This document shows positions 997-4,260 of a stretch of DNA of 34,684 nt, piece after piece. This DNA comes from Leptolyngbyaceae cyanobacterium M33_DOE_097 (GTDB taxonomy: Bacteria > Cyanobacteriota > Cyanobacteriia > Leptolyngbyales > Leptolyngbyaceae), in contig DVDV01000281.1 in the NCBI GenBank assembly GCA_015296075.1, positions 1 to 34,684 on the forward strand. The letters run 5' to 3'. The notes beneath the pieces were generated by a model. That model made no database searches and was not told the origin of the DNA. It saw only the letters and a program-made list of their open reading frames with translations. The translations under genes and the position numbers were made by a program. Each line of letters opens with the position of its first letter. Position 1 is the first letter of the stretch.

Positions 997-1215
997 ATGG
1001 CAGTTGAAAAAGTAAACTCCTCCTCTAGCTTGGCTGAAGTTGTTGATCGCATTTTAGACAAAGGCATCGTTGTAGATGCTTGGGTTCGAGTTTCGCTCGT
1101 GGGTATTGAATTGTTGGCTGTTGAAGCTCGGATTGTGATTGCATCAGTTGAGACTTACCTCAAGTATGCCGAAGCAGTTGGTTTAACTGCTCAAGCTGCT
1201 GTACCTGCTGCTTAA
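997..1215 (+). CDS. gvpA: Gas vesicle major structural protein GvpA
   Basis: GvpA is the small hydrophobic protein that polymerises into the ribs of the gas-vesicle shell and gives buoyancy. The 72-residue product matches the family almost throughout. It has the N-terminal [15 protein letters not shown] amphipathic helix, the beta-strand pair [20 protein letters not shown] and the second helix [14 protein letters not shown]. Usual cyanobacterial length is about 71 residues. The start at 997 is chosen because it gives the canonical MAVEK beginning and follows a purine-rich AAAGGGA; an upstream in-frame ATG at 796 would add 67 unrelated residues. Only one gvpA copy is present here, whereas some cyanobacteria carry two or more. 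A terminator-like structure follows before gvpC, in keeping with the large excess of GvpA needed over the other proteins. Confidence 0.97.
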
Positions 1216-1226
1216 TTACTTCTCTC

Positions 1227-1354
1227 ACTGGGGAGTAGATGCTGGAGTTAAAGATACAAAATCAAACCTAAAGTTGAAGTTTGCGACCTCTTTCTTCAAT
1301 TTGAATTTGAACTTATTAACTTTCTAGTTCACCATCTGCTACCCCAGTTTTTTT
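1227..1354 (+). terminator. Partial (read-through) terminator between gvpA and gvpC
   Basis: ACTGGGGAGTAGATG at 1227-1241 is complementary, with about two irregular positions, to CATCTGCTACCCCAGT at 1333-1348. A run of seven T (1348-1354) follows at once. The arms are separated by about 90 bases that contain shorter nested complementarities (for example TTGAAG/CTTCAA). This looks like a branched intrinsic terminator placed between the first gene and the rest of the cluster. It would yield abundant short gvpA mRNA and less gvpA-gvpC-gvpN-gvpJ transcript. The long loop makes folding less certain than for a compact hairpin. Confidence 0.6.
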
Positions 1355-1506
1355 AACTCTAAAAACAAGCTTCATACCACCTGGACAACAGAATTGAAAC
1401 TATAAGAGAACCTGTTTCTCAAATTACTATTTGATTTTTCAATTCTTCGTTCCTTCCTTTTTACTTCAATTCCTCACCTATTCTTTGTTAGGAAGGAGTT
1501 CCACAG

Positions 1507-2598
1507 ATGCCTCTTTACCATTCCTGGCAGCAGTCGCGGCAACAACGACAAGCCGCTGTATCTCAGCTTCTTACAACAGCACAACAAAACCGATTGGCGA
1601 TCGCGGCTCAACTGCGCGATGACTTGAGCCTCTTTCGTGAGATGTTAAATCAGCAAGACATCACACGGCGAATCGATGCTCAGGCATTTCAAGCTAAACT
1701 GCACGAATTTAAACTATCTCTGCAAATCGAGACACAGGCTTTTTTGGCAGACGCTACAAATCAACGTCAACTTGATGCCGAAGCCCTTGCGCAAGATTTA
1801 GCAGATTTTGTTGCATCTCTCCGCATGAGCGTTGCTGACCTGCGCCAAGATTTACAACTAGAGCTGGCTGCTAACGCTGAATCAATCCAACAGTTTTTGG
1901 CCGATCGCCGTGATTACCGCCTCTCCATGCATTTACAAACGATGCAAGACCTGGCTGATTTCATGGAAGGGCTAAGATCACAGGTACAAACTTCTTTGGC
2001 GAATAGCCAGACTGAGCGTCAGGTTAAAGCAAATGCGTTGCGCCAAAACTTGGCTCAGAGTCGAGCAGAACTAGCGGCTGATACACAGGCAAGGTTTGCG
2101 CGACTAGCAGATTTTCGAGAGGAACTGCGCCAATTTCGGACGGAGTTACGGCAAAACGTGTGGGGAAATGCCATTCCCCTAGCAAAACCAAGTTCAGTCG
2201 TTGCTAAGCCAAAGTCAAGCAAGCCCACAACTAGCGCAGTAAAACCAATAAAACCAGTTTTGAAAGCGCCTGTATCTCCAAAACCATCTCCAAAACCTGC
2301 TTCCGCGAAAACTGCCGTACCACCTAAAAAGTTACCTGTGCTTGCTCCACCTGTTGGAGCCTTTCAACGCGGGCAATCACTCGTTGTTGTACCAGCTCCG
2401 GAACAAGATGCTGTGGCTTTTGAGAAAGAGGTTTATAACCACATCCATGCTGTAAACGGTGCTCGCCTAACTGAGATTGAATCGGCTCTAGAGATCAATC
2501 GTTTTCAAGCGGTTGATGCGCTGCGATCGCTGATCAAAAAAGGTTTGATTACCCAGCGCGATCGCGTCTATCTGACCCAAGAACCGGCCCATCTGTAG
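1507..2598 (+). CDS. gvpC: Gas vesicle protein GvpC with extra C-terminal winged-helix-like domain
   Basis: GvpC coats the outside of the gas-vesicle shell and stiffens it against collapse. Residues 1-216 are charged, Gln/Ala-rich and helical. They carry degenerate repeats anchored by F-L-A-D and D-F-x-x-x-L-R patterns (FLAD at 79 and 130, LANS at 164, LADFREEL at 200), in keeping with the 33-residue GvpC repeat. Residues 221-285 form a Lys/Pro/Ser/Ala linker with 12 Lys and no Asp or Glu. Residues 305-357 form a small helical domain, GARLTEIE...NRFQAVDALRSL...GLITQRDRVY, also found at the end of GvpN next door. At 363 residues it is much longer than the ~190-residue Anabaena protein because of the linker and tail domain. 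The ATG at 1507 has an excellent GGAAGGAG site 8 bases upstream. Assignment as GvpC rests on repeats, composition and position. Confidence 0.9.
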   Translation: MPLYHSWQQSRQQRQAAVSQLLTTAQQNRLAIAAQLRDDLSLFREMLNQQDITRRIDAQAFQAKLHEFKLSLQIETQAFLADATNQRQLDAEALAQDLADFVASLRMSVADLRQDLQLELAANAESIQQFLADRRDYRLSMHLQTMQDLADFMEGLRSQVQTSLANSQTERQVKANALRQNLAQSRAELAADTQARFARLADFREELRQFRTELRQNVWGNAIPLAKPSSVVAKPKSSKPTTSAVKPIKPVLKAPVSPKPSPKPASAKTAVPPKKLPVLAPPVGAFQRGQSLVVVPAPEQDAVAFEKEVYNHIHAVNGARLTEIESALEINRFQAVDALRSLIKKGLITQRDRVYLTQEPAHL

Positions 2599-2644
2599 TA
2601 GGCATCAGCCCCTTATCTTTAACCCACATTACTGAGGAATCACC

Positions 2645-3904
2645 GTGACTACCGTTCTTCGAGCTAGCCCCCGCCGATTCGTTAGCACACCAGCAGTTGA
2701 GCGAATCATCACCCGTGCCCTCCGCTATTTGCATTCGGGGTATTCGGTTCACCTACGTGGACCTGCAGGCACCGGCAAAACGACACTGGCCCTGCATCTG
2801 GCTGATTTGCTAGCCCGCCCGATCATGCTAGTATACGGTGACGATGAGTTCAAAACATCGGACTTGATTGGTAATCAATCTGGTTATACGCGTAAAAAAG
2901 TTGTAGACAACTTTATCCACAGCGTTGTTAAGGTTGAGGACGAATTGCGGCAAAACTGGGTTGATTCTCGCTTGACCTTGGCCTGCCGAGAAGGGTTTAC
3001 GCTGGTATACGACGAGTTCAACCGATCGCGGCCTGAAGTGAATAACGTGTTGCTCTCAGCTCTAGAAGAAAAACTTCTAGTGTTGCCACCCAGCAACAAC
3101 CGAAGTGAATATATCCGAGTTAATCCTCAATTTCGGGCAATTTTCACTTCTAATCCTGAAGAATACGTTGGGGTGCATGATACTCAAGATGCATTGTTAG
3201 ATCGTCTGATCACCATTAATATTCCTGAGCCAGATGAGTTGACGCAGCAAGAAATTTTGGTGCAAAAGACCGAAATCGATCGTGCTAGTGCATTGTTAAT
3301 TGTGCGGCTAGTGAAGGAATTTCGGACGCGGACTAAGAGTGATAAGGTGTCAGGTCTACGCTCTTGTCTGATGATTGCCAAAATTTGCCATGACCACGAG
3401 ATTATAGTGAATCCTGGTAATGATGAGTTTCGCGATGTCTGTTGCGATATTCTGCTATCGCGTGCAGCCACTTCACTTAAAGAAGCAACAACAACATTGT
3501 GGGAATTATTAAATAGCTCGATTGGGCTAGGTTTAGGGCAGTCAGAGCCACTCAACCACGTTTTGGAAGAAACTGTTGAAGTCGAATCTGAGCCAGGTGA
3601 ATTACCAGAAACAATTGTTGCTCAAGCAGAAGTGATGGAAGTTGTTGAAGCGACTCCTGAACCCGTTCAAGAAACTTCTGAGCCGGAAGCCGTGTCACCA
3701 GAAGCCCCACTTGAAACCGTTCAACCCTGTACCGAAATTGTTTTGAGCTATTTGAAGCAGGCAACTGGGGCACGACTCGTAGACATTGAACAAACGTTGA
3801 ACTTAGATCGATTCCAAACTGTTGACTCACTCCGACTTTTGCTAAAAGAGGGACTGGTTGAGCAACGCGATCGCATGTATTATGCCCGGGAGATTGCCTC
3901 ATGA
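2645..3904 (+). CDS. gvpN: Gas vesicle AAA+ ATPase GvpN with acidic linker and C-terminal winged-helix-like domain
   Basis: GvpN is a MoxR-type AAA+ ATPase needed for full-size gas vesicles. Visible motifs are Walker [10 protein letters not shown] at residues 39-47, Walker B LVYDEF at 120-125, a sensor-1 Asn in FTSNPEE near 170, and the arginine-rich DRLITI region near 186. The ATPase core ends near residue 300. It is followed by a 60-residue acidic linker (301-360; 17 Glu, no Lys or Arg) and then a domain at 362-416, GARLVDIEQ...[10 protein letters not shown]...[10 protein letters not shown], matching the end of GvpC. The 419-residue length therefore exceeds the usual size for the family. 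The start is GTG at 2645, preceded by GAGGAA at 2633-2638. The stop overlaps the gvpJ ATG by four bases (ATGA), so the two are translationally coupled. Confidence 0.95.
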
Positions 3905-4260
3905 GTACCGCAGCACTTGCTTCACGCGATAGCGATCGTGCTATACGCACTGGCACTCAAGGGTCTACCCTGGCCGATGTCTTAGAGCGCGTCCTAGACA
4001 AAGGAATCGTGATTGCAGGAGACATCTCTGTTTCAGTCGCAAACACCGAGCTACTGAATATTCGGATTCGCCTGCTTATTTCTTCAGTCGATAAAGCTCG
4101 CGAGATCGGCATCAACTGGTGGGAAAACAACCCCCACTTTAATGCTCAAACCCACGAGCTAATCGAAACAAACCGACAACTCTTGCAGCGAATTGACCAC
4201 TTGGAAAGTGAGCTGCGCGAGTTACGTCAGTTAGCCCCTGCAAAACCTGAGTTGATGTGA
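3901..4260 (+). CDS. gvpJ: Gas vesicle minor structural protein GvpJ (GvpA family)
   Basis: This 119-residue protein has a GvpA-fold core at residues 22-70: [20 protein letters not shown], then [27 protein letters not shown]-terminal extension with WWENNPHF and a coiled-coil-like tail ([20 protein letters not shown]) follows. GvpA paralogues with such extensions are GvpJ/GvpM-type minor proteins, thought to act at vesicle initiation or in the caps. The ATG at 3901 overlaps the gvpN stop. The cluster ends here at a strong terminator, so genes that follow gvpJ in Anabaena-type clusters (gvpK, F/L, G, V, W) must be elsewhere if they exist. GvpJ fits better than GvpM by its position after gvpN, but the two names are not separable from sequence alone. 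Confidence 0.9.

Follow-up and report, generated by a model that had tools for sequence, protein, structure and literature searches.

A winged-helix tail common to the gas-vesicle proteins GvpC and GvpN of filamentous cyanobacteria, with a possible role in protein docking

The coat protein GvpC and the ATPase GvpN of a gas-vesicle cluster in Leptolyngbyaceae cyanobacterium M33_DOE_097 end in the same domain, and sequence comparisons confirm that the two C-terminal domains are homologous. Alignments, structure models and a tree of the tails support a duplication of this domain among the gas-vesicle genes that filamentous cyanobacteria carry. With moderate confidence, we regard the tails as an anciently duplicated winged helix carried on flexible linkers, most likely a protein-docking module; the docking role, its partner and its place of action are what we infer. 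The tails offer a way into two questions, the means by which GvpN promotes growth of the vesicle and the placement of GvpC on its shell, as a gvp-specific domain that should be separable from the coat repeats and the ATPase, expressible alone and usable as bait.

The window, meaning the whole stretch of 34,684 nucleotides analyzed here, carries gvpA, gvpC, gvpN and gvpJ consecutively on its forward strand (997-4260), as indicated by open reading frames and family models. The first gene, gvpA (997-1215), encodes a shell protein of 72 residues that scores 136.5 bits against the GvpA model NF006874 (cut-off 100) and 59.6 bits against PF00741. The last, gvpJ (3901-4260), encodes a minor shell protein of 119 residues, with 61.4 bits against PF00741 and 56.5 bits against the GvpJ model NF046090, below its cut-off of 125. 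Upstream of gvpA, two elements (833-847 and 875-889) lie 42 bases apart, are alike at 8 of 15 bases and precede a TATTCT at 913. The pair is more alike in relatives and recurs across 14 aligned gvpA upstream regions of tailed clusters; a repeat search of the window did not list it, and a tandem site for an activator is one possible reading. For SigJ, the published J-Box consensus GGGaAtacT (PMC6495340) has no full match at 780-996, where the best site agrees at 7 of 9 positions (985).

Between these genes lie the two that carry the tails. The open reading frame gvpC (1507-2598) encodes an outer coat protein of 363 residues composed of helical repeats, a low-complexity linker and the winged-helix tail. 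No GvpC model of Pfam or NCBIfam matched it at E≤1; its identity follows from a 33-residue repeat signal and from its position between gvpA and gvpN. The periodicity at lag 33 has a z of 4.0 in the window protein, with lags 18, 51 and 69 higher, and lag 33 becomes the top lag when 49 tailed GvpC proteins are pooled; judged by this periodicity, the window GvpC is a 33-residue helical-repeat protein. Its linker (2167-2400), rich in Pro, Lys, Ala and Ser, has a net charge of +12 over the 79 residues counted, and its tail spans residues of about 299-357 in the model (2401-2577), the sequence match to GvpN covering 2431-2589. The 419-residue product of gvpN (2645-3904) is a GvpN by TIGR02640, scoring 399.9 bits (cut-off 266.8), with its AAA+ domain at 2678-3463 (model positions 1-261). 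An acidic linker follows at approximately 3530-3706 (net -16 over 59 residues counted), and then the tail, residues of about 361-414 in the model (3725-3886), with the match to GvpC at 3740-3898. Elsewhere in the same genome, where GvpK and GvpF/L were the further gas-vesicle families sought, one further contig encodes GvpK and a GvpF/L, another encodes a second GvpF/L, and the gene set looks present but split over contigs.

BLASTP of the window GvpC against GvpN yields a single significant match, between residues 309-361 and 366-418, which is gapless, identical at 26 of 53 positions and positive at 38 (57.8 bits, E 1e-13). The two proteins reach a Smith-Waterman score of 145, where none of 500 shuffles exceeds 71; removal of the tails lowers it to 33, within the shuffled range (maximum 53, 200 shuffles). 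Profiles built from 19 GvpC tails and 27 GvpN tails match each other with a probability of 99.9% (E 1.1e-31). When the source genome was searched with the GvpC tail, only the GvpC and GvpN tails rose above noise, the third match having an E of 0.27. The first-pass annotation had placed one homologous domain on both proteins, with a core more than half identical and unrelated remainders; these claims are borne out, with 23 of 38 positions of the GARL...Y core identical and the domain coordinates correct to within a few residues.

Its description of the domain as winged-helix-like agrees with AlphaFold2 models of the two tails, both with a core pLDDT of 93-97, each built from 57 sequences (the window protein and 56 others, drawn from 61 GvpC tails for one model and 62 GvpN tails for the other). 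The elements follow the same order in both models, three helices and then a two-strand wing: H3-20, H25-32, H36-48, E52-55 and E58-61 in GvpC, and H5-16, H22-29, H33-46, E49-52 and E55-58 in GvpN. Both have a single-residue bridge ahead of alpha2 and the order alpha1-(beta1)-alpha2-alpha3-beta2-beta3 in one compact domain, and the wing loop of the GvpC model consists of two residues. Both tails are therefore predicted winged helices. In VIA-align, the top Z is 10.8 for GvpC (59 residues, rmsd 1.5) and 11.2 for GvpN (60 residues, rmsd 1.6), with matches to MecR2, a Sulfolobus DNA-binding protein, Z-alpha domains, MarR proteins and RPA32C. Foldseek matches, none with E<0.001, include MarR, IclR and the winged helices of small-molecule methyltransferases, and a sequence search against proteins of known structure gave nothing significant. 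The structural matches listed are mostly DNA-binding regulators; the winged helices of small-molecule methyltransferases and RPA32C mediate protein contacts, and function is not readable from a fold match alone.

The DNA of the two tails is identical at 89 of 159 bases and at only 19 of 53 third positions, which excludes recent copying, as the first-pass annotation had held. In a tree of 62 GvpC and 63 GvpN tails, three label changes suffice, compared with about 42 under shuffled labels, and DNA identity and tree together reject both recent copying and gene conversion. A single old duplication inside the gas-vesicle gene set, followed by descent, fits these sequences best, in a tree whose alignment is short and many of whose forks are weakly settled. 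As an exception, the GvpC and GvpN tails of two close genomes (L160 and L168) adjoin each other.

Purifying selection acts on both tails, with dN/dS values of 0.105 (GvpC) and 0.193 (GvpN), compared with 0.41 and 0.33 for the respective linkers, all estimated from five pairs of relatives among 30 candidate pairs. Among 57 GvpC tails, R36, V40, L43 and L46 are invariant and R24, L25, E29, L32, Q38, D56, R57 and Y59 nearly so, whereas 57 GvpN tails have no invariant column. The wing is near-invariant in GvpC tails and frequently lost in GvpN tails. GvpN tails also diverge faster, with a mean distance of 1.42 versus 0.77 for GvpC across 47 genomes, and on the ATPase tree the tail was gained or lost 16 times in GvpN and 4 times in GvpC. 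Fewer gains and losses and slower divergence point to the GvpC copy as the main carrier.

To describe how widely the tail occurs, we refer to two samples. The phylum sample comprises 386 genomes, 56 of which have GvpN above the family cut-off (58 genes), and the tail is found on 27 of these 58 GvpN genes and on 19 GvpC genes, four of the latter being GvpC-like genes that sit out of place, at the cluster's far end. The first-pass annotation had noted that the link would be only local if all GvpN proteins had the domain and GvpC tails lacked it; the 19 GvpC tails speak otherwise. Searching the 386 whole genomes with the GvpC-tail profile returned 45 matches with E≤1.2e-6, namely 19 GvpC and 26 GvpN, and weaker matches begin at E 9.6e-6. 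Five of the weaker ones were inspected; by sequence, four look like MntR/DtxR-like regulators and one is an 87-residue open reading frame. At comparable score, the tail thus appears restricted to GvpC and GvpN within the genomes sampled.

The second sample, the best 80 of 419 relatives' GvpN loci and hence biased toward near kin, has the tail on 62 GvpN and 62 GvpC proteins, mainly of Leptolyngbya-like and other filamentous cyanobacteria. Both samples reject a tail confined to the source genome. The tail is absent from both Microcystis sampled, Anabaena CRKS33, Trichormus M33, two Calothrix and one Nostoc (L166), and occurs on GvpN only in Sphaerospermopsis, Richelia and two other Nostoc (L145, L158). 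Two genomes of one code family (f7) have a decaying GvpN tail, which in L079 stops at the tail start and in L071 is out of frame. Beyond the phylum, five GvpN proteins and some of their neighbors, encoded on plasmids of Halobacterium, Octadecabacter, Spartinivicinus, Methylosinus and Natrinema (5 of 25 matched records), gave no convincing match to the tail, the best having an E of 0.13 and lying inside the ATPase domain.

Several loci depart from the usual arrangement. Four f7 genomes encode a short tailed GvpC-like protein about 5 kb downstream of gvpN (L039 1295-2122, L040 2281-2913, L042 1609-2325 and L043 1722-2447), and no GvpC-like open reading frame of at least 110 residues lies directly upstream of gvpN in these genomes. 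GvpC-like proteins of one family (L050 8896-9948, L051 8896-9933) differ from the tailed proteins in the sequence that follows the linker at the C-terminus, and other lineages may accordingly carry other GvpC tails. A tandem gvpA-gvpC arrangement in L057 (8991-9731 and 10815-11351), with GvpC truncated shortly past the repeats and the GvpN tail kept, resembles that of planktic Planktothrix.

Gene content separates loci with and without the GvpC tail. The tailed GvpC family is present at 80 of 81 tailed and 1 of 49 untailed loci, and a classical family without the tail at none of the 81 and 37 of the 49. The latter is presumably the Anabaena/Dolichospermum type, to which we take the laboratory-model GvpC of Anabaena flos-aquae to belong, and its lack of a tail may explain why the tail has received scant notice. 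Genes labeled by sequence reading, in flanks of varying length, also differ between loci without and with the GvpC tail: 43 of 49 versus 6 of 81 have a second GvpF/L-like gene, 41 of 49 versus 12 of 81 an ArsA-like ATPase and 39 of 49 versus 11 of 81 a GvpV-like gene. These neighbor differences track lineages, and no candidate for a tail partner emerged from them.

The gvp-only spread, the constraint on the tails, an acidic residue in the recognition helix of GvpC, model matches to the winged helices of methyltransferases and RPA32C, and a precedent in Halobacterium favor a docking role; the predominance of DNA-binding regulators among the structural matches counts against it, as do R36, Q38 and R55-D56-R57, the most conserved residues of the GvpC tail that look exposed, which lie where a DNA-reading face would be expected if their placement is taken from the fold. 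In the mechanism we propose, the repeats of GvpC would cover the shell while its tail projects outward on the flexible linker, free to recognize another protein where the vesicle grows. The GvpN copy would let the ATPase use the same site in those lineages that retain it, and coat placement and ATP-driven growth would be brought to one spot. The common partner might be a neighboring GvpC tail, a further Gvp protein in the growth zone, or both. In this scheme GvpC bears the principal copy, and the copy on GvpN assists without being essential; because GvpN tails have often lost the wing, the two copies may also bind different things. The common docking site suggested by the first-pass annotation is plausible as a role, but the direct contact between the tails that it also considered is not supported by the loci with one tail.

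Under such direct contact, the GvpN tail would bind the GvpC tail and bring the ATPase to the coat, a reading that the presence of one domain on both proteins invites but that we consider unlikely. In Halobacterium, GvpN is described as binding the GvpC C-terminus, possibly in competition with the contact of GvpC with itself (PMC9372576), which speaks for this reading. All 19 rows of the phylum sample with a GvpC tail also have a GvpN tail, an apparent rule contradicted by the second sample, in which 11 of the best 80 of 419 loci carry the tail on GvpC but show none on GvpN. Among these, L152 is possibly a frameshift, with the GvpN tail in another frame; whole-genome searches of the other ten found no further strong tail carrier (next best E 5.8e-4). 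Conversely, a GvpN tail without a detected GvpC tail occurs in 15 of 138 rows (8 in the first set, 7 in the second), rows that combine two sets sharing at least 7 contigs, so that some genomes count twice, that include the doubtful L152 and L171 (a broken GvpC), and of which 7 are left undecided because the contig is too short.

A lack of co-evolution also argues against pairing. Once ATPase distance is removed, GvpC and GvpN tail distances across 47 genomes are uncorrelated (partial r 0.01, p 0.44). A double-centered permutation made the tails of one genome seem extra alike (p 0.002), but we attribute this signal to kinship, because the excess disappears once near relatives serve as the comparison (mean 0.003, 53% of 38 positive). 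Co-presence of the tails mostly follows lineage, with only three kinship-independent pairs behind the association. The linkers offer pairing some encouragement, since GvpN linkers are acidic in 73 of 78 cases and GvpC linkers basic in 45 of 73, counts covering 78 of 89 tailed GvpN and 73 of 81 tailed GvpC proteins and omitting linkers whose start was unclear or whose length fell below 15 residues. Opposite charges occur in just 27 of 54 GvpC-GvpN pairs, which include the omitted linkers, and charge complementarity is rejected as a general rule.

It is quite unlikely, in our judgment, that the tails bind DNA or RNA, acting in feedback on gvp expression or as a tether between vesicle and nucleoid. 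The listed fold matches, mostly DNA-binding winged helices (VIA Z of 11.2 and below), would suit such a function, and so would the invariant R36 and near-invariant Q38 of the GvpC recognition helix and the conserved RDR in the wing. However, the tails have a net charge close to zero or slightly negative, averaging -0.8 (GvpC) and -1.3 (GvpN) when all aligned residues are counted and only about -0.4 and -0.5 within the portion that matches the profile, and position 41, within the recognition helix, is D or E in 55 of 57 GvpC tails. The shortness of the wing loop and the lack of conservation of the GvpN wing also speak against it, as does the region upstream of gvpA (780-996), which yielded no candidate operator in the form of an inverted repeat of at least 10 bases. 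DNA binding had already been ranked below docking in the first-pass annotation, and the charge pattern agrees. A more specific version, in which unassembled GvpC and GvpN would sense vesicle demand through a nucleic-acid-reading domain and act by the same feedback or tether, has only a slim chance of being correct; if true, the coat of the float would double as its own regulator.

Equally slim is the prospect that GvpC tails pair with one another to cross-link the coat or cluster vesicles, the GvpN copy being a relic: the GvpC tail is the more conserved and stable of the two, and C-terminal parts of Halobacterium GvpC are described as binding each other (PMC9372576), but purifying selection persists on GvpN tails, and in the Planktothrix comparison reported in PMC5259702 a benthic strain with GvpC-40 and a planktic strain with a shorter GvpC, one of each, did not differ in how abundant or how large their vesicle clusters were.

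Among known systems, winged helices of the TrmB/MarR type share their fold and element order with the tails, and profile matches to them are weak: against the TrmB model PF01978 (cut-off 25.6), the GvpC tail reaches 22.9 and the GvpN tail 14.3 bits, outside the family, and the GvpC tail scores 15.5 bits against PF13463, below the curated cut-off of 22.2. Unlike those domains, the tails have a short wing and are borne by a coat protein and an ATPase. The GvpC of Halobacterium salinarum offers a parallel in that its C-terminal domain, described as self-binding and as bound by GvpN and GvpO (PMC9372576), is a binding site for GvpN. With sequence profiles, Halobacterium GvpC matched neither tail up to E 1000, GvpN and GvpO gave meaningless values (E 8 and 11), and the tails appear not to belong to the halobacterial GvpC C-terminal domain family. 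A GvpC on Halobacterium pNRC200 (L194) ends in a zinc-finger-looking CxxC...H...H, unlike the cyanobacterial tail.

The classical GvpC of the Anabaena/Dolichospermum type is likewise a repeat-bearing coat protein encoded beside gvpA, but without the tail. Tailed counterparts are GvpC-40 of benthic Planktothrix and the GvpC of Geitlerinema PCC 7407, which are similarly long, with degenerate 33-residue repeats and a GvpN-like end (PMC5259702). Near the C-terminus of GvpC-40, a 28-residue stretch is 64% identical to Planktothrix GvpN, and 60 residues of GvpC-40 resemble the Geitlerinema GvpC (PMC5259702). In the parts of that account available to us, the domain is not termed a winged helix or traced through cyanobacteria, and the GvpN copy appears just as the match to GvpC-40; it is also not described in the titles and abstract beginnings of the literature on gas vesicles, GvpC and GvpN that we searched, mostly outside subscription journals. 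The resemblance between GvpC-40 and GvpN is therefore already in print (PMC5259702), and to it our analyses would add the predicted winged-helix fold, the spread of the tail among cyanobacteria and its apparent gvp-only distribution.
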